Of a DNA stretch of 64,000 nucleotides, positions 26,511 to 34,918 are shown in pieces (the stretch's first letter is position 1; every line of letters starts with the position of its first letter). Under the pieces are notes generated by a model. It was not told the origin of the DNA, made no database searches, and saw nothing but the letters and a program-made list of their open reading frames with translations. Origin of the DNA: an uncultured Algibacter sp. (GTDB taxonomy: Bacteria > Bacteroidota > Bacteroidia > Flavobacteriales > Flavobacteriaceae); contig NZ_CANMAU010000006.1 in assembly GCF_947495925.1 (NCBI RefSeq), positions 67,001 to 131,000 of the forward strand. The letters are read 5' to 3'. Made by a program: the position numbers and the translations under genes.

Positions 26511-28142
26511 TTATGATTCTCCTAAAAACGGATAACGATAATCTTTAGGTGTTACAAACGTTTCTTTTATCATTCTTGGTGATACCCAGCGTAATAAGTT
26601 TTGAGCACTTCCTGCTTTATCATTAGTTCCAGATGCTCTAGCACCACCAAAAGGTTGTTGTCCAACAACAGCACCAGTTGGTTTATCGTTAATATAGAAG
26701 TTTCCTGCGCTGTTTTGCAATGCTTCTGTTGCTTGAGTCACAGCGTATCGGTCTTTGGATATAATAGCTCCCGTTAGAGCATATTCACTAGTTTCATCTA
26801 CTAACTTTAAAGTTTTGGCATAAGCGTCATCCTCGTAAACATAAATAGTAATTACAGGTCCAAATAACTCAGTGCACATGGTGGTATATTTCGGATTGTT
26901 TGTGACTATAACGGTTGGCTCAATAAAGTACCCTTTGCTTTTATCATAATTACCGCCAACTATAATTTCGGCGTCATTATCTGTTTTTGCAGCATCAATA
27001 TATTTAGCCAATTTATTAAAAGACCCTTCGTGAATTACTGAAGTAATAAAATTGCCCATATCTTCAGGTGAGCCCATTTTAAAAGAGTTAACATCTTTTA
27101 TAACCTGAGTTTTTACAGCGTCCCAAAGACTTTTAGGAATATAAGCTCTTGATGCAGCACTACATTTCTGACCTTGAAATTCAAAAGCCCCACGAACAAT
27201 CGCTGTGGCAACATGAATAGGGTTTGCAGATTTATGCGCAATTATAAAATCTTTACCGCCTGTTTCTCCAACAATTTTCGGATAGGTTTTATAATTATGA
27301 ATGTTATTTCCTATTTGTTTCCAAAGTTCTTTAAAAATAAAGGTAGAACCCGTAAAGTGTAACCCAGAAAAATCAGGGCTTGCTAAAACTGTATTAGTGA
27401 TCATTACCGGGTCTCCAAAAACGACGTTAATAACTCCAGGAGGTATTCCGGCTTCTTCAAATACATCTATAATTACTTTAGCAGAGTACACTTGACTATC
27501 ACTAGGTTTCCAAACTACCACATTACCCATTAGAGCCATACATGCCGGCAAATTTCCTGCAATAGCTGTAAAGTTAAATGGTGTTACGGCATAAGTAAAT
27601 CCTTCTAGCGGACGATATTCCACTCTGTTCCAAGCATCACTTGTGCTTTCGGGTTGCTCCATATAAATGTCCGTCATAAATTGCACATTAAAGCGCAAGA
27701 AATCTATAAACTCACAAGCAGCATCAATTTCTGCTTGATGAATAGTCTTTGATTGGGCTATCATAGTAGCTGCATTTATTTTAGCACGATAGGGGCCCGC
27801 AATCAATTCGGCAGCCTTTAAAAATATACCTGCACGTTGCTCCCATGGCATTTGGCTCCATGTTTTTCGAGCTTCTAAAGCAGTCGAGATAGCATCATCA
27901 ATGTGAGATTGTTCTGCTAAATGATAGGTACCTACAACATGTTGGTGATCATGTGGTGGCGACATCGTTCTGGTATTTCCAGTGATTACGTCCTCACCAT
28001 TTATATATAAAGGAACATCAATTTTACTATTAAACATTGTTTTATATGCGTCTAAAACTGCTGCTCTTTCAGGAGAACCTGGAGCATATGATTTTACCGG
28101 TTCGTTAACCGCAATTGGTACATTAAAAAAGCCTTTTCCCAT
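26511..28142 (-). CDS. pruA: 1-pyrroline-5-carboxylate dehydrogenase
   Basis: The 543-residue NAD-dependent aldehyde dehydrogenase oxidises glutamate semialdehyde to glutamate, the second step of proline catabolism. The aldehyde dehydrogenase motifs are intact: TPFNFTAIAGNLPACMALMG, the catalytic Glu in VGETGGKDF and the nucleophile Cys in FQGQKCSAASR. The ELFGPVITIYVY and PFGGARASGTNDKAG stretches support the monofunctional P5CDH type. No proline dehydrogenase gene is in the window. A -7-like TAAATTTG lies at 28185-28192 on the minus strand. Confidence 0.95.
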   Translation of the reverse strand: MGKGFFNVPIAVNEPVKSYAPGSPERAAVLDAYKTMFNSKIDVPLYINGEDVITGNTRTMSPPHDHQHVVGTYHLAEQSHIDDAISTALEARKTWSQMPWEQRAGIFLKAAELIAGPYRAKINAATMIAQSKTIHQAEIDAACEFIDFLRFNVQFMTDIYMEQPESTSDAWNRVEYRPLEGFTYAVTPFNFTAIAGNLPACMALMGNVVVWKPSDSQVYSAKVIIDVFEEAGIPPGVINVVFGDPVMITNTVLASPDFSGLHFTGSTFIFKELWKQIGNNIHNYKTYPKIVGETGGKDFIIAHKSANPIHVATAIVRGAFEFQGQKCSAASRAYIPKSLWDAVKTQVIKDVNSFKMGSPEDMGNFITSVIHEGSFNKLAKYIDAAKTDNDAEIIVGGNYDKSKGYFIEPTVIVTNNPKYTTMCTELFGPVITIYVYEDDAYAKTLKLVDETSEYALTGAIISKDRYAVTQATEALQNSAGNFYINDKPTGAVVGQQPFGGARASGTNDKAGSAQNLLRWVSPRMIKETFVTPKDYRYPFLGES

Positions 28143-28293
28143 AATATGACGTTTTTTATTATTGATTTTTCAGTAAATGTCCTGCAAATTTAAGAATTTT
28201 CAAATTATAAATAGAGTTAGATGGTTCTTAAAAGCACGTTAAATTTTATTTATTTTTTGTAAGTTGCTCTTCGGTTTTAAGACTACAGAATTT

Positions 28294-29019
28294 ATGTGTA
28301 CCCTTACTTTTATTCCAAAGAAAAATAAAGATTTTGTGTTGACTCAAAATCGAGATGAAGCCCCAAATAGAATTGCGCTACCTCCGGACTATTATTTGGT
28401 AAATGGGACTAAAATGTTATTTCCAAAAGATAAGTTAGCAGGGGGAACATGGATAGGTATTAGCGAAAAGAGCAGAGTGGTATGTGTGCTTAACGGTGGT
28501 TTTGAATGTCATCAGAGAAAATCAAATTATAGATTGAGTAGGGGGGTGGTCGCGAATGATTTTATGCTTTCAGATGATGTTTTGAAAACAGTTGATCAAT
28601 ATAATTTTAGTGATATAGAACCTTTTACTATGGTAGTTGCGGATTGGAGCACTAGTTTAAAATTATACGAATTGGTTTGGGATGGCGAGCAAAAACATTT
28701 TTCAGGTTTACCATTAGAACCCAAAATTTGGTCATCATCTACTTTATATTCATTCGCTATGAAAAAAGAACGTTTAGCTTGGTTTGAAGCCTTTAAATCT
28801 GAAAATTTATTGAATTCGGAAACTTTATTAGGTTTTCATAAGTCTGAAGGACAAGGAAATACAGATTATGGTGTGGTTATGGATCGTGGTTTTGTAAAAA
28901 CAACGAGCATTACGCAGATAGAAAAATATCAAGATAATTTAAAAATGCGCTATGAACATTTGGGTAGTAACTCAGTTTTGACCAATACTTTCAATATACC
29001 ACAAGTTGTAAATGAATAA
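28294..29019 (+). CDS. NRDE/TANGO2-family Ntn-hydrolase-like protein
   Basis: The ATG at 28294 gives a 241-residue protein starting MCTLTFIPKKNKDFVLTQNRDE. An upstream TTG would add ten residues and bury the conserved Cys2, so I rejected it. Cys2 followed by the NRDE motif is the hallmark of the NRDE/TANGO2 superfamily, whose fold resembles N-terminal nucleophile hydrolases after Met removal. The GGTWIGISEKSRVVCVLNGG motif is also typical. The biochemical reaction is not established for bacterial members. It overlaps the next gene by 8 bp, so the two are coupled. Confidence 0.88.
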   Translation: MCTLTFIPKKNKDFVLTQNRDEAPNRIALPPDYYLVNGTKMLFPKDKLAGGTWIGISEKSRVVCVLNGGFECHQRKSNYRLSRGVVANDFMLSDDVLKTVDQYNFSDIEPFTMVVADWSTSLKLYELVWDGEQKHFSGLPLEPKIWSSSTLYSFAMKKERLAWFEAFKSENLLNSETLLGFHKSEGQGNTDYGVVMDRGFVKTTSITQIEKYQDNLKMRYEHLGSNSVLTNTFNIPQVVNE

Positions 29020-30004
29020 TACGGGTGTAATTTTAACATTAGCATACCCAGATACTATTGTTATGGTTTCAGAAGAGTGGTTTTCTCCTTTTTTGAAATA
29101 TATAGGTGTGGGTAAAAAAGATTACTTACGTGCTGGTCATGCAGCATTGGTGCTTATAGAAAAAAGAACAGGTATTTTAGAATATCATGATTTTGGGCGA
29201 TATATTACTCCAGAACCTACGGGGCGTGTTCGTGGAAGGGATACTGATAACGAATTGCATTTCCCTATGAAGGCGATTGTGGATGGAGAAACCATAAAAA
29301 ATATTGACCTCATTTTAGAGTTTTTAGCAACACATCCTAAAATAACACATGGAGAAGGAAAATTGGTAGCATCGGTTTGTAATGCTATTGATTATGATTT
29401 GGCAAGAGCGCATATTACGGAAATGCAAAACAAGCATTTTATAAGGTATGCTGCTTTTATAAAAGAAGCCTGTAATTGTGCCCGATTTGTAACAGATACT
29501 TTAATTGCTTCTGTTACTAAAATGTCAATTAAAAAGAAACTTGAAAGCTCAAAATGGTTTACACCAAGTACGGTAGGTAATGTGTTGTTAGCCGATACGG
29601 AAAATGATGTTTATGAGGTTTCAGAAGCTGGTGTTATTTCTCAATTCGAAGGCTCTCAAAAGAGTGAGAACCTACGTTGTTTTTTAGATAAACTAAAGGA
29701 CCATGAAATTAATTTAGTTGGAACACAAGAACCAAAAACTGTTGAGGGATTGCATGATACTGCTCAATGGCTTTCAGGAATTGCAGCTGGAGCTTGGTTT
29801 GAGCTACACGAAACTTCTAATAAATTTGAGTACCGTTACAGACGTGTTTCTCCTTATGGAAATATTGATGTTGATGCTGTTTTTAGAATAGAAAGTGGTG
29901 GTTTTAATTATCATTCAGCATTTGAAATTGTGCATTATTCCAACTGCGCGTTTTTTCATGTAGAACAATCTGGTGCGGTTTTTAAATTTACACGTAAAGT
30001 TTAG
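29012..30004 (+). CDS. DUF6695-like protein, possible permuted NlpC/P60-type cysteine enzyme
   Basis: The 330-residue protein has no signal peptide. In the N-terminal half, His sits in a predicted strand (AGHAALVLIEK, about 42) and a Cys/Asn pair in a later helix (EACNCARFVTDTL, about 155). That His-before-Cys order and NCxxF pattern resemble permuted papain-like folds such as LRAT. The C-terminal part (about 225-330) is strand-rich (YRYRRVSPYGNIDVDAVFRI). It overlaps the NRDE gene by 8 bp. I connect it with DUF6695 from memory. Enzymatic activity is inference only. Confidence 0.7.
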   Translation: MNNTGVILTLAYPDTIVMVSEEWFSPFLKYIGVGKKDYLRAGHAALVLIEKRTGILEYHDFGRYITPEPTGRVRGRDTDNELHFPMKAIVDGETIKNIDLILEFLATHPKITHGEGKLVASVCNAIDYDLARAHITEMQNKHFIRYAAFIKEACNCARFVTDTLIASVTKMSIKKKLESSKWFTPSTVGNVLLADTENDVYEVSEAGVISQFEGSQKSENLRCFLDKLKDHEINLVGTQEPKTVEGLHDTAQWLSGIAAGAWFELHETSNKFEYRYRRVSPYGNIDVDAVFRIESGGFNYHSAFEIVHYSNCAFFHVEQSGAVFKFTRKV

Positions 30005-30024: not shown

Positions 30025-30801
30025 TTAAAAAGATTTAATAACTCTTAAAACGGCGGAGGCATTAGTTCTGTTTTCCATGAATTTGGGACCAACTCCAAAT
30101 TGAAACGAAAAACCGCTTTCAAATTCATAATGTACTTGTGGTAAAATAAGTAATTCCATTTCGTTGCTATCTACTTTTTGAATTGTAGGGTCCGAATTAT
30201 TAATTTCGACACCAACTACGGTATGTTTATTAATATCTGCAAAAACAGAGGTGTTTAAAATAATAGTGTAATTCTTTTCAGGAGCATCGGCTCCGGATTC
30301 TGTCATGAAACCAAATAAACCAATAGCACTCCAAACCTTACTAAATCTATAAGCAGGAACATAAAGGAAGTTCATTTCAAGAATATCTTCATGAATATAT
30401 TTTTCACCAATAATCTGAATTCCGTGAATAAATTTGTTGTTTTTTGATGCGCCTATAGTCCATTGAATGGCCATTTTATAAGCTTCTAATTCTAGATTTT
30501 CAAATGGGAATTCGAGCTCTACTGCAAAATTATTGAAGAGTGCATACTCGATTTCTGGTGCCCACTCAACGGTACGTTCTGAATTATTGTTTAATGGAAA
30601 ATCGGCTAAAGAATTGATTTCTAGTTCTCCTTGTTTAGCGCCTAAACCCCTAACCAAATCAAACATAAGAGGCTCAGGAATATTAACAGTTTCTTGAATA
30701 TTTTTTTCTTGACTAAGAAGAGAATCCGACAAGAATAAGATCACTAATAGTATTAATGATTTAACGAAATGGATACAATTATTAAGATTTAAAACTTTCA
30801 T
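30025..30801 (-). CDS. Putative outer membrane beta-barrel protein, function unknown
   Basis: The 258-residue protein has a long signal peptide (hydrophobic core FVKSLILLVILFLSDSLLSQ). The mature part consists of amphipathic strands with alternating residues (SFQFGVGPKFM, IEYALFNNFAVELEFPFENL, ASAVLRVIKSF), ending in the terminal Phe favoured by outer membrane proteins. No named family is recognised. It is convergent with the DUF6695 gene and lies downstream of an SDR gene on the same strand with about 158 bp between, so it may be separately transcribed. Confidence 0.7.
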   Translation of the reverse strand: MKVLNLNNCIHFVKSLILLVILFLSDSLLSQEKNIQETVNIPEPLMFDLVRGLGAKQGELEINSLADFPLNNNSERTVEWAPEIEYALFNNFAVELEFPFENLELEAYKMAIQWTIGASKNNKFIHGIQIIGEKYIHEDILEMNFLYVPAYRFSKVWSAIGLFGFMTESGADAPEKNYTIILNTSVFADINKHTVVGVEINNSDPTIQKVDSNEMELLILPQVHYEFESGFSFQFGVGPKFMENRTNASAVLRVIKSF

Positions 30802-30958
30802 TTTTTAGAAAGAATAAATATAAAGGTTGTTGATGTATTTTTCCTTTATTTGCTCAATTAATCTTTATAGATATCAATTTGTCAAGTTTTTTAAGACTAA
30901 TTCGTTTAATTGTTTACTTTTAATAACTTACAGATTTACTAAGTTTTTACATTTGTTT

Positions 30959-31828
30959 TCAATTATGGTTTTTCATTTTTAGTACTTCTAATTCGAAAAA
31001 ATCCTTAAGTTGTTTTGAACCATATTTTGTTGCAATGTTGTCGTTAGCCATTGCCGTTAAAAAAAACTCGATGGGACCGTAAGTTTTTGAAGAGGTAAAT
31101 GTTCTTAAAAACCAAATTGTAAATTGTCTTATCCAATCGGGAAGATGACTTATTTTAATTGGTTTTTTCCACGATTTTAAGGCTAACTCTGCCAATTCAT
31201 TTTGAGTAAATACATCAATTCCTCCAACAGTTTCTTCTTTAACCTTTTTTTCCATATTATCTATGCATACCTTAGCTAAATCTTCACCATCTATGGGGTT
31301 TAGTTTGTAGTTTCCATGCCCGAATAAATACACTCTTCCTCCTTTTGCCATTTTAAGAAAATCACCCATATCTGAAAAAAAACCGTTAGGGCGCATTATT
31401 GAATAGTCAAGTTTTGATGCTTTTAGTTCGTCTACAAACTTCTCTTTAGCTTCAAATATTTTTAAATGTCTTAATTTATCTCCGTTAATAGCAGATATAT
31501 ATTGAAAAGATTTGACTTTGTCTTGTACGGCCATTTTCAATAAGTTAGAATTACCTTTATAATCGACATCCATATAAGTCATTCCATCTTTTTGCCGAGT
31601 TATACCTAAAGTTGTAAATACCCAATCGATATTTTTTGTAATTCCTTTTAGGGTATCGGGCTTTGTGATTTGACCAACAAAAAACTCATCTACCGAATCG
31701 AAAATATGTTTCTGTTCTTCTTTACGGATTAATACTCTAATCCAATATCCTCTTTTTTTAAGCTCCTTTACAAGGTATTTACCTAAATATCCTGTGGCCC
31801 CAGCTACTAAAGCATTTTTTGTATTCAT
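30959..31828 (-). CDS. NAD(P)-binding atypical short-chain dehydrogenase (NmrA/epimerase-like)
   Basis: The 289-residue Rossmann protein begins with the dinucleotide loop LVAGATGYLGKYLVKELKKR. The pattern VFTTLGITRQKDG and the active-site-like FQYISAI with a displaced Tyr suggest the atypical SDR group (NAD(P)H-binding or complex I NDUFA9-like). The C-terminal part is less typical. A -7 box (TATTTTTG, 31843-31850 minus strand) lies just upstream. The adjacent Crp/Fnr gene is on the same strand, 64 bp away. The substrate is unknown. Confidence 0.82.
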   Translation of the reverse strand: MNTKNALVAGATGYLGKYLVKELKKRGYWIRVLIRKEEQKHIFDSVDEFFVGQITKPDTLKGITKNIDWVFTTLGITRQKDGMTYMDVDYKGNSNLLKMAVQDKVKSFQYISAINGDKLRHLKIFEAKEKFVDELKASKLDYSIMRPNGFFSDMGDFLKMAKGGRVYLFGHGNYKLNPIDGEDLAKVCIDNMEKKVKEETVGGIDVFTQNELAELALKSWKKPIKISHLPDWIRQFTIWFLRTFTSSKTYGPIEFFLTAMANDNIATKYGSKQLKDFFELEVLKMKNHN

Positions 31829-31892
31829 TATTTTTCTTTGTACAAAAATAGATGTTCAATTTTTGGATTCTCTTGACGACGGTCAAGTTTAT

Positions 31893-32465
31893 CTAAATCT
31901 TATGTACTCGTTTTTTTATTCTGCTAAGTGTTTCTGGAGAGACTCCTAAAAAAGAAGCAATGTATCGCTGAGGCACACGTAAAAATAATTCCCCTTGCTT
32001 ATTTAACAAATTTTTATAGCGTTCCTCAGCTGACTTTGTGACAAAAGAGGCTATTACTTTTTGACAAGTAATAAGTTCGTTTTCGGTGGCTATTCTTGCA
32101 ATCACTTCCATTTTTGGGACCTTACTTAATAATTTATCAATTCTCGATTTAGTGAATATATATACATCCGTTTGTTCAACGGCTTGATAATTTTCTATAG
32201 CTGGAATATTAAAAGTGTAACTTTCTCCAGCACAAATAAATTGACCTTCTGTGTAAAAAAAAGCAGTTTTGTCTTTTCCTTCTACATTATAAAAAAGCCT
32301 AACGCATCCATTAATCACAAAATAGATTTTATTAGATACTTTTCCTTCAGTGAAAATGATTTCGTTCTTTTTATAAGTCTTCTTTTCAATAGATCTTTTG
32401 AGTTGAGAAATTTCATCTTCGTTAAGAGAAATATAAGTGTTAATATTCTCAATTAGTTTTTCCAT
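31893..32465 (-). CDS. Crp/Fnr-family transcriptional regulator
   Basis: The 190-residue protein has a cyclic-nucleotide-binding jelly roll (about 20-130; KKNEIIFTEGKVSNKIYFVI, YNVEGKDKTAFFYTEGQFI) and a short C-terminal helix-turn-helix (RVPQRYIASFLGVSPETLSR). It lacks the Cys residues of oxygen-sensing FNR and the exact cAMP-binding motif of Crp, so its ligand is unknown. This small type is abundant in Bacteroidota. An inverted repeat lies 11 bp upstream of the start. It may control the neighbouring SDR gene, or itself. Confidence 0.9.
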   Translation of the reverse strand: MEKLIENINTYISLNEDEISQLKRSIEKKTYKKNEIIFTEGKVSNKIYFVINGCVRLFYNVEGKDKTAFFYTEGQFICAGESYTFNIPAIENYQAVEQTDVYIFTKSRIDKLLSKVPKMEVIARIATENELITCQKVIASFVTKSAEERYKNLLNKQGELFLRVPQRYIASFLGVSPETLSRIKKRVHKI

Positions 32466-32768
32466 ATTGTTAGTTCATGTTGACAACAACATTTTTGGGC
32501 AAGAAGCCTATGAAGGTGTATCTGTTAAGCTATGGTTAGGGGTACATAGTAAAACATTACATTCAATTGTTTAATACATCAGTATATTCGGTTCCCGCTT
32601 CTTAAACCTTTGTACGTTTTTATACGAGCTATTTATTTTTGGTGTTATTCCGGTTATGTACAAATAAGGCCTCAAGTTCTTGTTTTTTAAATTTAAATAC
32701 TCAAAGCCTTTTACTAAGAAAGAGTTATGTTAAAACACTTTATGTGTTAAATATCACTTTAAACCCAA
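32466..32768. other. Gene-free interval upstream of the Crp/Fnr gene
   Basis: This 303-bp interval holds the candidate operator at 32477-32492 and, near 32734-32748, a weak hairpin (AACAC/GTGTT). The hairpin lies just past the stop of the GH117-like gene and may be its terminator. I see nothing else. Confidence 0.45.
32477..32492. promoter_or_regulatory. Candidate operator upstream of the Crp/Fnr gene
   Basis: ATGTTG-ACAA-CAACAT is a perfect 6-bp inverted repeat with a 4-nt spacer, 11 bp upstream of the regulator start codon. Crp/Fnr proteins bind two-fold symmetric sites, so autoregulation is plausible but unproven. Confidence 0.35.
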
Positions 32769-34040
32769 TTAGTTTTTGATGTCTAGATTGGGGTTATAAT
32801 CATATCCATCTCCATTCTTGTAATCTTGAATAATTTGATAAGCTTTCTGAACATCATTACCATGCTCTAAAGATAAATTACATTCAAAACGCACAAAATG
32901 GTAGTAGGGGTATAACGCATGGCTAACACCCCACGTTAAGCCTTGTCCAGGTTGTAAATCAACATCAGTAAAGTTTCCTGATCGATAAGCGCCTCCTCCC
33001 TTAGGAACAGTAATTCCTTGGATAACAGGATGAAAATTTATACCATCTTCTGAAAATAGAATACTATTTCTTTCTGGTCCTTCGGGCAAAGTAGCGCATA
33101 CTCCGTTCCGATATGGCCATACCATTCCGCCATGACCTCCCATTAACACGGGGTTGTATTTTGATTTGATATAGGGCCCTTCTGGGTTATCTGCAATAGC
33201 CACACCTGTTGCAAGTGGTATATCGGCATGTTCTTTATTAAACTCACCTGATGAGATATTCGGTGTCCAAGGTAAACGACCATGGCTTTTATAGTATAGA
33301 TAATATTGACCTCCTTTAACAAAGAAAGTAGGTTCATGTATCACTTCTCCATCCCAAGCATCTTGAGCTCCGGGTTCTAAAATTGGTGCATCTAATGATT
33401 TCCAAGGACCATTTGGGGAATTAGCAACGGCCATACCAATAACATTTGGTGTAAAATCACCTGCGGTTGGAAAAGTTTTCCCCCAACGTGCATGCTTTAA
33501 ACTTTCGGCTGCTTGATATGCCAAATAATACTTACCATTTACAATCAATACCTCTGGGTTAAAAGCACTACGATGGTCGTAACGTCCTGTTTCACCTCGC
33601 TTAACTGCAATACCTTGTTCTTCCCATTTGTATCCATCAGTGGAGGTGGCGTACCATACATCACACATGTCCCAATGAAAAGCTCTTAGGGAATTTGTAG
33701 CCTTATTGGGACCAACCACTTCTGTATTAGACTGAGGCTTGGAATACCACATATAGTATGTGCTATCAACTTTTATGACACTTGAAGGATAATAGCGTTC
33801 AATACCTTCTTCAAATTCAAATCCTTCTAATTTTACAAATTTAAATTGCGTATTAAACTCGTTGTATTTTTCATAAAGTATTTTGCCTTCGCGAAAACGT
33901 GTGTAAGAAGCGCTTTCGAAAGATTCTTCTTGTTCTTTTTGATTCTCATCTGTTTTTACCTGCTGGCAAGAGAATAAAGTCGTAACTATCAAGACTAAAA
34001 CAATACTAATTTTTTTTGTTGTGAAAGATGTTAATGTCAT
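32769..34040 (-). CDS. GH117-like five-bladed propeller glycoside hydrolase lipoprotein
   Basis: The ATG at 34040 gives 423 residues; an upstream TTG would add two. A lipoprotein signal (KKISIVLVLIVTTLFSC) predicts membrane anchoring. The body has GH43/GH117-style propeller blades: PSSVIKVDSTYYMWYSK, CDVWYATSTDGYKWEEQG, YDHRSAFNPEVLIVNGKYYL and GEVIHEPTFFVKGGQYYLYY. Known GH117 enzymes remove anhydro-galactose from red-algal galactan oligosaccharides. In the first blade the usual Asp-Pro before the strand reads YYPSS, so the expected catalytic base is not at its normal place. No other carbohydrate enzyme is nearby. The family call is probable; activity is uncertain. Confidence 0.7.
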   Translation of the reverse strand: MTLTSFTTKKISIVLVLIVTTLFSCQQVKTDENQKEQEESFESASYTRFREGKILYEKYNEFNTQFKFVKLEGFEFEEGIERYYPSSVIKVDSTYYMWYSKPQSNTEVVGPNKATNSLRAFHWDMCDVWYATSTDGYKWEEQGIAVKRGETGRYDHRSAFNPEVLIVNGKYYLAYQAAESLKHARWGKTFPTAGDFTPNVIGMAVANSPNGPWKSLDAPILEPGAQDAWDGEVIHEPTFFVKGGQYYLYYKSHGRLPWTPNISSGEFNKEHADIPLATGVAIADNPEGPYIKSKYNPVLMGGHGGMVWPYRNGVCATLPEGPERNSILFSEDGINFHPVIQGITVPKGGGAYRSGNFTDVDLQPGQGLTWGVSHALYPYYHFVRFECNLSLEHGNDVQKAYQIIQDYKNGDGYDYNPNLDIKN

Positions 34041-34531
34041 AATCAAAGTGTGTCGGTTATCTATTGAATTTTTTTAAACAAATCAAGATACTTATCATGT
34101 TTTGATGGTAAATATCTCAAAAAGTAGAGATTAAATCTAATGATAATTGTTGAATACCCAACATTAAAATTTTATTTGTTGAGTTTGTTGTTTTCTTCTT
34201 GGATAGTCGATCAAATTCTATTCACTTTCAATTGGAATTGGGTAAAGAGCGTATTTGTCTTTTGCCATAGAATATTTAAGAACTACGAACTCATTTTGGA
34301 AATAAATAATGGCTTTGATAATCATCTCCTAATTTCCTAATCCTAGACTTTACCATATTTTTAAGGTCCACCAAAATTATTTTCCTCGTGCATTATAATG
34401 TCTAGATTGGAATAGTTAGCTTCAAATTCTTGGGAGTGAAAAGAATTTGTGAACACAAAAAAGAACAGAGGAAGACCTCTTTAAAAACTATTTTTTGCTT
34501 TTAACTTAATATAGAAAATAAATACTAATTA
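34041..34531. other. Gene-free interval between the GH117-like gene and apaG
   Basis: This 491-bp interval carries short open frames on both strands (for example 34140-34340 plus, 66 codons). They lack plausible protein features, so I read them as noise. No clear terminator for apaG was found. Promoters for the GH117-like gene should lie at its left end, but I see no good TAnnTTTG box. Confidence 0.45.
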
Positions 34532-34918
34532 TTAGTTAATAGCAAAAGGAGCGCTTAACTTGAACAATGGAATAGCTACATCAAATTTTTTGGTAGTGGT
34601 AAAATTGACCATACTATAATAACCTTGCATAGCGCCAAAAGGAGAGGTGAGTAAGCAGCCTGAAGTATAAGTATGAGATTCACCGGGTTTTAATACCGGT
34701 TTTTTGCCAATTACACCATCGCCATCAACGGTTTCAATGTTATTTAAAGCATCTAGAATCTCCCAATGACGTGCATTAAGTTGCACGGAATCTTTACTCT
34801 GGTTTTCAATAGTAATAGTATACCCAAAGGCATACTGAATTTTATAATTTTTATAAAACGAGCCTTCGAAGTTAGTTTCTACAGTAATTTTTATCCCGCT
34901 TGTAACTTGTTGAACCAT
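34532..34918 (-). CDS. apaG: ApaG domain protein
   Basis: The 128-residue protein consists of a single ApaG immunoglobulin-like beta-sandwich. Family landmarks include FGYTITIENQSKDSVQLNARHW, VIGKKPVLKPGESHTYTSGC and FGAMQGYYSMVNF. ApaG is linked genetically to cobalt/magnesium resistance in enterobacteria, but its molecular role is not settled. It sits just downstream of the T9SS plug gene on the same strand, 106 bp apart. Confidence 0.93.
   Translation of the reverse strand: MVQQVTSGIKITVETNFEGSFYKNYKIQYAFGYTITIENQSKDSVQLNARHWEILDALNNIETVDGDGVIGKKPVLKPGESHTYTSGCLLTSPFGAMQGYYSMVNFTTTKKFDVAIPLFKLSAPFAIN

Follow-up and report, generated by a model that had tools for sequence, protein, structure and literature searches.

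Why should two predicted cysteine hydrolases be encoded as one overlapping unit? The question is raised by a locus of an uncultured Algibacter sp. (Flavobacteriaceae), in a 64,000-nucleotide stretch of contig NZ_CANMAU010000006.1 (assembly GCF_947495925.1, positions 67,001 to 131,000, forward strand), which we refer to as the window. Gene 1 (28294-29019, forward strand) encodes a 241-residue TANGO2/NRDE-family protein, a predicted cysteine N-terminal nucleophile (Ntn) hydrolase. Gene 2 (29012-30004, forward strand) encodes a 330-residue protein with a TseH-type permuted NlpC/P60 domain and a C-terminal DUF6695 domain. Both assignments come from the open reading frames (ORFs) and Pfam matches. 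The folds and catalytic residues of both proteins are well supported, and the two genes recur together in related and in more distant genomes. Our tentative answer is that both products are cytosolic cysteine enzymes whose targets are acyl bonds, the leading candidates for the substrates being lipids of the N-acyl amino-acid or N-acyl amine type. The TANGO2 and TseH families are each already known, and no report of a TANGO2-TseH pairing was found in the literature searched, where most subscription journals fall outside.

The overlapping genes and their proteins

Read from the ATG at 28294, gene 1 encodes a protein that opens MCT and carries the NRDE motif at residues 19-22, and its stop codon ends at 29019; the first possible start of the ORF is a TTG further upstream, at 28264. 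Gene 2 begins with the ATG at 29012 and its stop codon ends at 30004. The first-pass annotation, made from the letters of the window, had claimed an 8-bp overlap between an NRDE gene and a DUF6695-like gene, and this overlap is indeed present as ATGAATAA (29012-29019, forward strand). The translational coupling claimed with it is probable, as the overlap is conserved and the genes are kept adjacent in two genomic settings. Directly downstream of gene 2, the ORF list has a gene on the opposite strand.

The gene 1 protein matches the TANGO2 profile (PF05742) with 59.3 bits at a cut-off of 22.6, and its motifs are the Met1-Cys2 start, NRDE (residues 19-22) and WSSSTLY (146-152). Of 395 genomes examined across the phylum, 132 gave TANGO2 matches, 92 of them at 200-275 bits and 40 of a divergent form at 29-70 bits, to which the window protein belongs. 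An NCBIfam search gave two chance-level matches only. The predicted model (predicted local distance difference test, pLDDT, 90.6) has the Ntn fold of a cysteine Ntn-hydrolase, and its closest PDB structures are human TANGO2 (8sv7, E 1.4e-11), followed by penicillin V acylase and bile salt hydrolases. The earlier description of the NRDE protein as Ntn-like is thus kept, as a predicted cysteine Ntn-hydrolase, and is narrowed to TANGO2-like by Pfam and the model. In an alignment of 77 TANGO2-like proteins, whose rows were cut back to begin with MC wherever such a start could be located, 76 keep Cys2 and the RDE of the NRDE motif and one has a gap there; the first residue of the motif is Asn in 73, Ser in three and a gap in one.

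In the gene 2 protein, residues 7-172 match the TseH profile (PF25218; 219.3 bits, cut-off 27) and residues 251-328, encoded by 29762-29995 on the forward strand, match DUF6695 (PF20405; 113.1 bits, cut-off 25). The sole solved relative listed by sequence was 6v98, with E 4e-4 for the single protein and 2.5e-4 for a 44-row profile. The predicted model reached a mean pLDDT of 78.7 and a predicted template modelling score of 0.78, and parts of it are uncertain since the other four models had a pLDDT of only 66-71. Foldseek gave a single match under E 0.001, again 6v98, which is TseH (E 1.8e-6). Alignment of the model with 6v98 by VIA-align gave Z 15.3 and 3.5 A over 173 aligned residues at 19% identity, within model residues 2-213. 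Aichivirus 2A (Z 5.5), human CLN5 (4.9) and PPPDE1 (4.8) were given no weight because their Z values lie below a telling level, and the DUF6695 part gave mixed matches only, at Z 3.9 or less. An NCBIfam search with the protein returned no match, and no stretch of a viral collection matched patterns drawn from it.

The motifs GHAALVL and, further on, CNCARFV had been pointed out at first pass, and they contain His43 and Cys156, respectively. In the predicted model His43 begins a strand (43-50) and Cys156 begins a helix (156-167), and the predicted catalytic residues come in the permuted order His43 - Asp60 - Tyr146 - Cys156. In permuted NlpC/P60 enzymes, catalysis is attributed to a Cys and a His together with a polar residue and a Tyr that is conserved (PMC3142127). 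Accordingly named by analogy with that source, Asp60 (codon 29189-29191) is the predicted third, polar residue and Tyr146 (29447-29449) the predicted fourth, next to the predicted catalytic His43 (29138-29140) and the predicted nucleophile Cys156 (29477-29479), all on the forward strand. Among 120 distinct homologues, drawn from 129 loci after L093 (cut) and L110 (weak) had been set aside, His43, Asp60 and Cys156 are unchanged in all 120, and Tyr146 is Tyr in 119 and Phe in one. The strict GH...D-[FYC]-GRY pattern is kept in 39 of 41 more distant proteins, the exceptions being L255 and the shorter copy of L223. The latter locus has tandem TseH genes, of 198 and 232 residues, and the shorter is without the strict GH...DFGRY pattern.

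A permuted papain-like fold, as suggested at first pass, is therefore supported by the Pfam TseH match, the sequence match to 6v98, the Z of 15.3 and the residue order, and the fold search with the 330-residue protein gave TseH, of permuted NlpC/P60 fold, as its best match. The comparison with LRAT made at the same time was right as to the permuted papain-like order, but the nearest kin is TseH. Membership of LRAT was rejected, as no match to an LRAT Pfam model was listed up to an E of 10, in a search where the HMMER filters drop most weak matches.

Conservation of the pair

The first-pass annotation had left conservation of the gene pair to be checked, and the pair proved to be conserved. Of the 199 genomes examined in the window's family, 79 have the TseH-like gene, 107 have TANGO2 and 65 have both, and in all 65 the two are adjacent with TANGO2 first. 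This count comprises 64 pairs by coordinates, on the same strand, and one (G066) at a contig end (L030). Genome G066 (C218, C238) has an additional TANGO2 match on a contig other than the pair's, which may be a second copy or a strain variant. Co-occurrence of the genes across the 199 genomes gave a Fisher p of 2.8e-11, uncorrected for kinship. Of the loci of named relatives, 42 of 43 have the pair, and L073 is without TANGO2. The TseH-like gene has one match in the window genome and one per genome in all 79.

Once exact duplicates were removed, 99 distinct pair loci remained, 98 from the family and L100. The genes overlap in 94 of them and by exactly 8 bp in 70; since overlaps were counted from the earliest start codon that an ORF offers, some of the larger ones may be false.

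The pair also recurs in another order, that of G241. TseH was found in 23 of its 259 genomes, with TANGO2 directly upstream in 10 of the 23, at spacings of -22 (six pairs), -16, -4 and +3 bases (two pairs). Nine of these ten pairs follow a DinB-like gene. The genes are therefore kept together in two neighbourhoods, the usual family spot and the one in the G241 order. The pair was not seen in 18 loci of other families in the window's order or in seven other loci of the phylum.

The DUF6695 part varies in how it is attached. In 48 TseH loci outside the family it was a separate ORF in 25, inferred to be fused in 14 (scored as such when one ORF had at least 300 residues) and without a called ORF in nine, in six of which (L224, L227, L233, L236, L245 and L247) tBLASTn finds it. 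A Pfam check matched five of the separate ORFs to PF20405 and confirmed three fused ones (L102, L255 and L242). The separate ORF is the downstream gene in many relatives, and the occurrence of DUF6695 as a fusion in some loci and a separate gene in others supports a physical link between the TseH and DUF6695 parts.

Proposed function

The activity that we propose would proceed as follows. The TANGO2-like protein would lose Met1 to leave Cys2 as the N-terminal nucleophile, which would cleave an acyl-amide or acyl-thioester by hydrolysis, or else bind and transfer it. In the TseH-like protein, Cys156, His43, Asp60 and Tyr146 would form an acyl-enzyme from a lipid and hand the acyl group to water or to an amine, while DUF6695 probably binds the substrate or a partner. 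An N-acyl amide would then be formed or trimmed by one enzyme and cleaved by the other. A cytosolic location is proposed because no signal peptide was evident by eye and because a free Cys2 is needed.

Several reports point towards acyl substrates. Permuted NlpC/P60 enzymes have a hydrophobic pocket, two have been proposed as lipid-amino-acid amidases, and for YiiX, which contained a fatty acid, cleavage of fatty-acid amides has been proposed (PMC3142127). In a liposome assay at pH 8.9, TseH was active as a phospholipase (PMC12994826), and the HRASLS enzymes have N-acyltransferase activity (PMC4624172). Human TANGO2 binds acyl-coenzyme A (acyl-CoA; PMC11867700), and it has been proposed to hydrolyse fatty-acid derivatives as a cysteine Ntn enzyme (PMC13044924). 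Some Bacteroidota produce aminolipids that contain an acyl-amide bond (PMC11631085). Gene neighbours outside the family give a weak lead: an amino-acid decarboxylase gene lies in 18 of the 48 TseH loci (11 of the pyridoxal phosphate (PLP) group II, five of the ornithine/diaminopimelate type and two PanD), and an MMPL-type transporter gene in four, two of which have TANGO2.

A number of observations weigh against this reading. None of the 18 decarboxylase-bearing loci holds TANGO2, a PLP decarboxylase is found in 13 of 92 family loci, nine of these without TANGO2, and the neighbour clues were picked out after the fact. TseH had no detectable activity on long-chain phosphatidylglycerol or phosphatidylethanolamine (PMC12994826) and acyltransferase activity of TANGO2 was ruled out (PMC11867700). 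The oxyanion residue Asn157 of TANGO2, which has been aligned with the catalytic Asn of known enzymes (PMC13044924), seems to be replaced by Ser148 or a neighbour in the gene 1 protein, in an ambiguous alignment that places WSSSTLY of the window subfamily where canonical TANGO2 (L108) has GLSN. The genes also occur apart: 14 of the 79 family genomes with the TseH-like gene are without TANGO2, and 42 of the 107 with TANGO2 are without the TseH-like gene. Parsimony on the tree of TseH-like proteins (FastTree, with some weakly supported nodes) gives eight changes of TANGO2 presence. Together with the separate occurrence, these changes indicate that the two functions are linked but separable.

The decarboxylase-bearing loci are L222-L231, L233, L102, L106, L107, L253 and L255-L257. 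In L102 the TseH gene is flanked by panD and a cysteate-synthase-like gene (288 bits, model cut-off 600), and L106 is similar, which suggests amine or sulfonate chemistry at these two loci. A role of the TseH-like protein as a sulfonolipid N-acyltransferase was rejected as the main explanation, as such neighbours occur in two of the 48 loci only, away from the pair.

In the most novel form of the lipid reading, the two proteins would be halves of a bacterial N-acyl-amide lipid cycle: an N-acyl amine or amino-acid lipid would be made or remodelled by the TseH-like enzyme, and its cleavage would fall to the TANGO2-type enzyme. We regard this specific form as rather improbable. Were it true, the whole TANGO2 family, with the human protein among its members, would consist of N-acyl amidases or thioesterases, and the effector TseH would have arisen from a lipid enzyme of housekeeping metabolism that was turned into a weapon.

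Alternative substrates and carriers

Somewhat unlikely, but the most serious alternative, is that the substrates are peptides, proteins or small amides, the TseH-like protein having peptidase, amidase or deamidase activity while peptides or amino-acid amides are hydrolysed by the NRDE protein. The matches of the TANGO2-like model to penicillin V acylase and bile salt hydrolases fit such chemistry, PPPDE1 is among the matches of the gene 2 protein (at the Z below telling level given above), and the DinB-like and ATP-grasp-like neighbours of TANGO2-like genes, identified with weak Pfam support, could fit peptide-like chemistry as well. However, the gene 2 protein does not have the canonical peptidase order of Cys before His, and several permuted NlpC/P60 enzymes with a known ligand or activity are lipid-directed (PMC12994826; PMC3142127).

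It is unlikely that the TANGO2-like protein is instead a non-enzymatic carrier of heme or acyl-CoA, which the TseH-like protein loads or unloads. The acyl-CoA binding of human TANGO2 noted above would agree with this, and a role in heme trafficking has been argued for a Shewanella homologue, which binds heme and aids the maturation of cytochrome c (PMC10470608). Heme binding by human TANGO2 has, however, been judged nonspecific (PMC13044924), and the conservation of Cys2 and RDE is what would be expected of a catalyst, although acyl-CoA binding by NRDE could also explain the conservation of RDE. The same Shewanella report groups Tenacibaculum crassostreae with the gamma-proteobacteria, whereas NCBI taxonomy places the genus in Flavobacteriaceae; its homologue, reported as partly active (PMC10470608), is taken here as coming from the window's own family.

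Genomic neighbourhoods

The usual left neighbour of the pair is a divergent aldehyde-dehydrogenase-type gene (26511-28142 in the window, reverse strand), with a tBLASTn homologue beside the pair in 91 of the 99 distinct loci. This gene is presumably pruA-type. The usual right neighbour is a PF04379 gene, presumably apaG-type, which in the window lies about 4.6 kb off (34604-34852, reverse strand; G000:C6:101604-101852). The ORFs at 30025-34046 sit between the pair and the apaG-type gene and are probably an insertion.

Such a fixed setting raises the question of whether the two genes merely share an inherited chromosomal spot and act separately, which we consider improbable, and a little more so than a carrier role. 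Both flanks are present in 78 of the 99 distinct pair loci, and each gene can occupy the spot alone: the TseH-like gene lies beside the pruA-type gene in all 14 TANGO2-less genomes, and 28 of 41 TANGO2-only loci are at the pruA-type spot, 11 being beside DinB-like genes and two at neither (41 of the 42 TANGO2-only family genomes were examined, G188 being excluded as below the cut-off). Against a mere shared spot stand the conserved overlap and the same genes in the same order in the other neighbourhood of the G241 order. In addition, the family pairs L126 and L144 are without either flank and L136, L146, L149 and L155 are without the pruA-type gene, although 30 of the searched loci had a flank of at most 1.5 kb, where absence of a neighbour is weak evidence.

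TANGO2-like genes beside a DinB-like gene form a second recurrent neighbourhood (L111, L117-L119, L157, L160, L167, L173 and L182-L184). Most of these loci are near ATP-grasp-like genes and some near DoxX-like genes, with weak Pfam support. Around canonical TANGO2 (L187-L195 and L108), the neighbour genes sought were found in 0 of 10 loci.

The effector name

Pfam labels the domain as an effector of the type VI secretion system (T6SS), and the TseH clade has been described with conflict contexts (PMC12994826), which the TseH-like copies studied here do not show. A T6SS marker, TssC, sought with the PF17541 profile only, was not found in the window genome (G000). It was found in 22 of the 199 family genomes, i.e., in seven of the 79 with the TseH-like gene and in 15 of the 120 without it, and in all seven genomes with both it lies on another contig than the TseH-like gene. 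In a check for T6SS fusions and neighbours, the gene 2 protein comprised TseH and DUF6695 only; neighbours were judged by homology, and not all window genes were scanned with Pfam. PADLOC gave no match for either protein. The reading implied by the Pfam name, a T6SS antibacterial effector encoded with a partner for immunity or an accessory role, is thus very improbable and was rejected, given a window genome without a PF17541 match to TssC, a marker in only 7/79 genomes and always on another contig, a single match per genome that mostly occupies one chromosomal spot, and an upstream partner that resembles an enzyme. For the copies studied here, "T6SS effector TseH-like" misleads as a name, 72 of the 79 genomes being without the TssC sought.

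A differently built protein was found within the same bacterial family. L110:449-1573 (G003:C22) encodes 374 residues with a TseH domain (70 bits) and no DUF6695, in a genome that has TssC. Its TseH domain is preceded by a stretch that looks VgrG-like by eye, without a Pfam match, and the gene after it has a lipoprotein-like start, also by eye. It is possible that this protein is a real T6SS effector, and its occurrence, like the Pfam label and the clade's conflict contexts, speaks for an effector role.

Comparison with known systems

The closest known relative of the gene 2 protein is TseH, the V. cholerae T6SS effector VCA0285 (6v98), with which it shares the Pfam domain, the predicted fold and a His strand before the Cys helix. 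In contrast to TseH, whose 6v98 chain has 203 residues, the window protein adds DUF6695 and has a TANGO2-like partner upstream. Its genome is without TssC (PF17541), and the next gene downstream of the pair is on the opposite strand.

YiiX, BcPPNE, LRAT, HRASLS/PLAAT, Tox-Act1 and Lnb (DUF4105) have the same His-polar-Tyr-Cys order (PMC3142127; PMC12994826; PMC4624172), and acyl-directed cysteine chemistry is probably shared between them and the window protein. They differ in that the Pfam matches of the window protein are TseH and DUF6695 only, and a TANGO2 partner is reported for none of them in the literature searched.

By analogy of fold kind, the pair resembles two mammalian enzymes of N-acylethanolamine lipids: PLAAT, a permuted papain-like acyltransferase (PMC4624172), and NAAA, a cysteine Ntn amidase of the same lipid class (PMC13044924). 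No family membership is claimed for the window pair, and the link in substrate is conjecture.

The gene 1 protein differs from human TANGO2 (8sv7, 9bwa) and bacterial HtpA in belonging to a divergent subfamily (59 bits) and in the apparent replacement, by an ambiguous alignment, of the proposed oxyanion Asn. It shares with them the Pfam TANGO2 domain, the Met1-Cys2 start, the NRDE motif and the predicted Ntn fold. TANGO2 causes a severe metabolic disorder in humans, and there is dispute over whether it is a heme carrier, an acyl-CoA binder or an Ntn-hydrolase. A TANGO2-family gene held next to a permuted papain-like and probably acyl-directed partner provides a small bacterial genetic system for addressing the question of the substrate.

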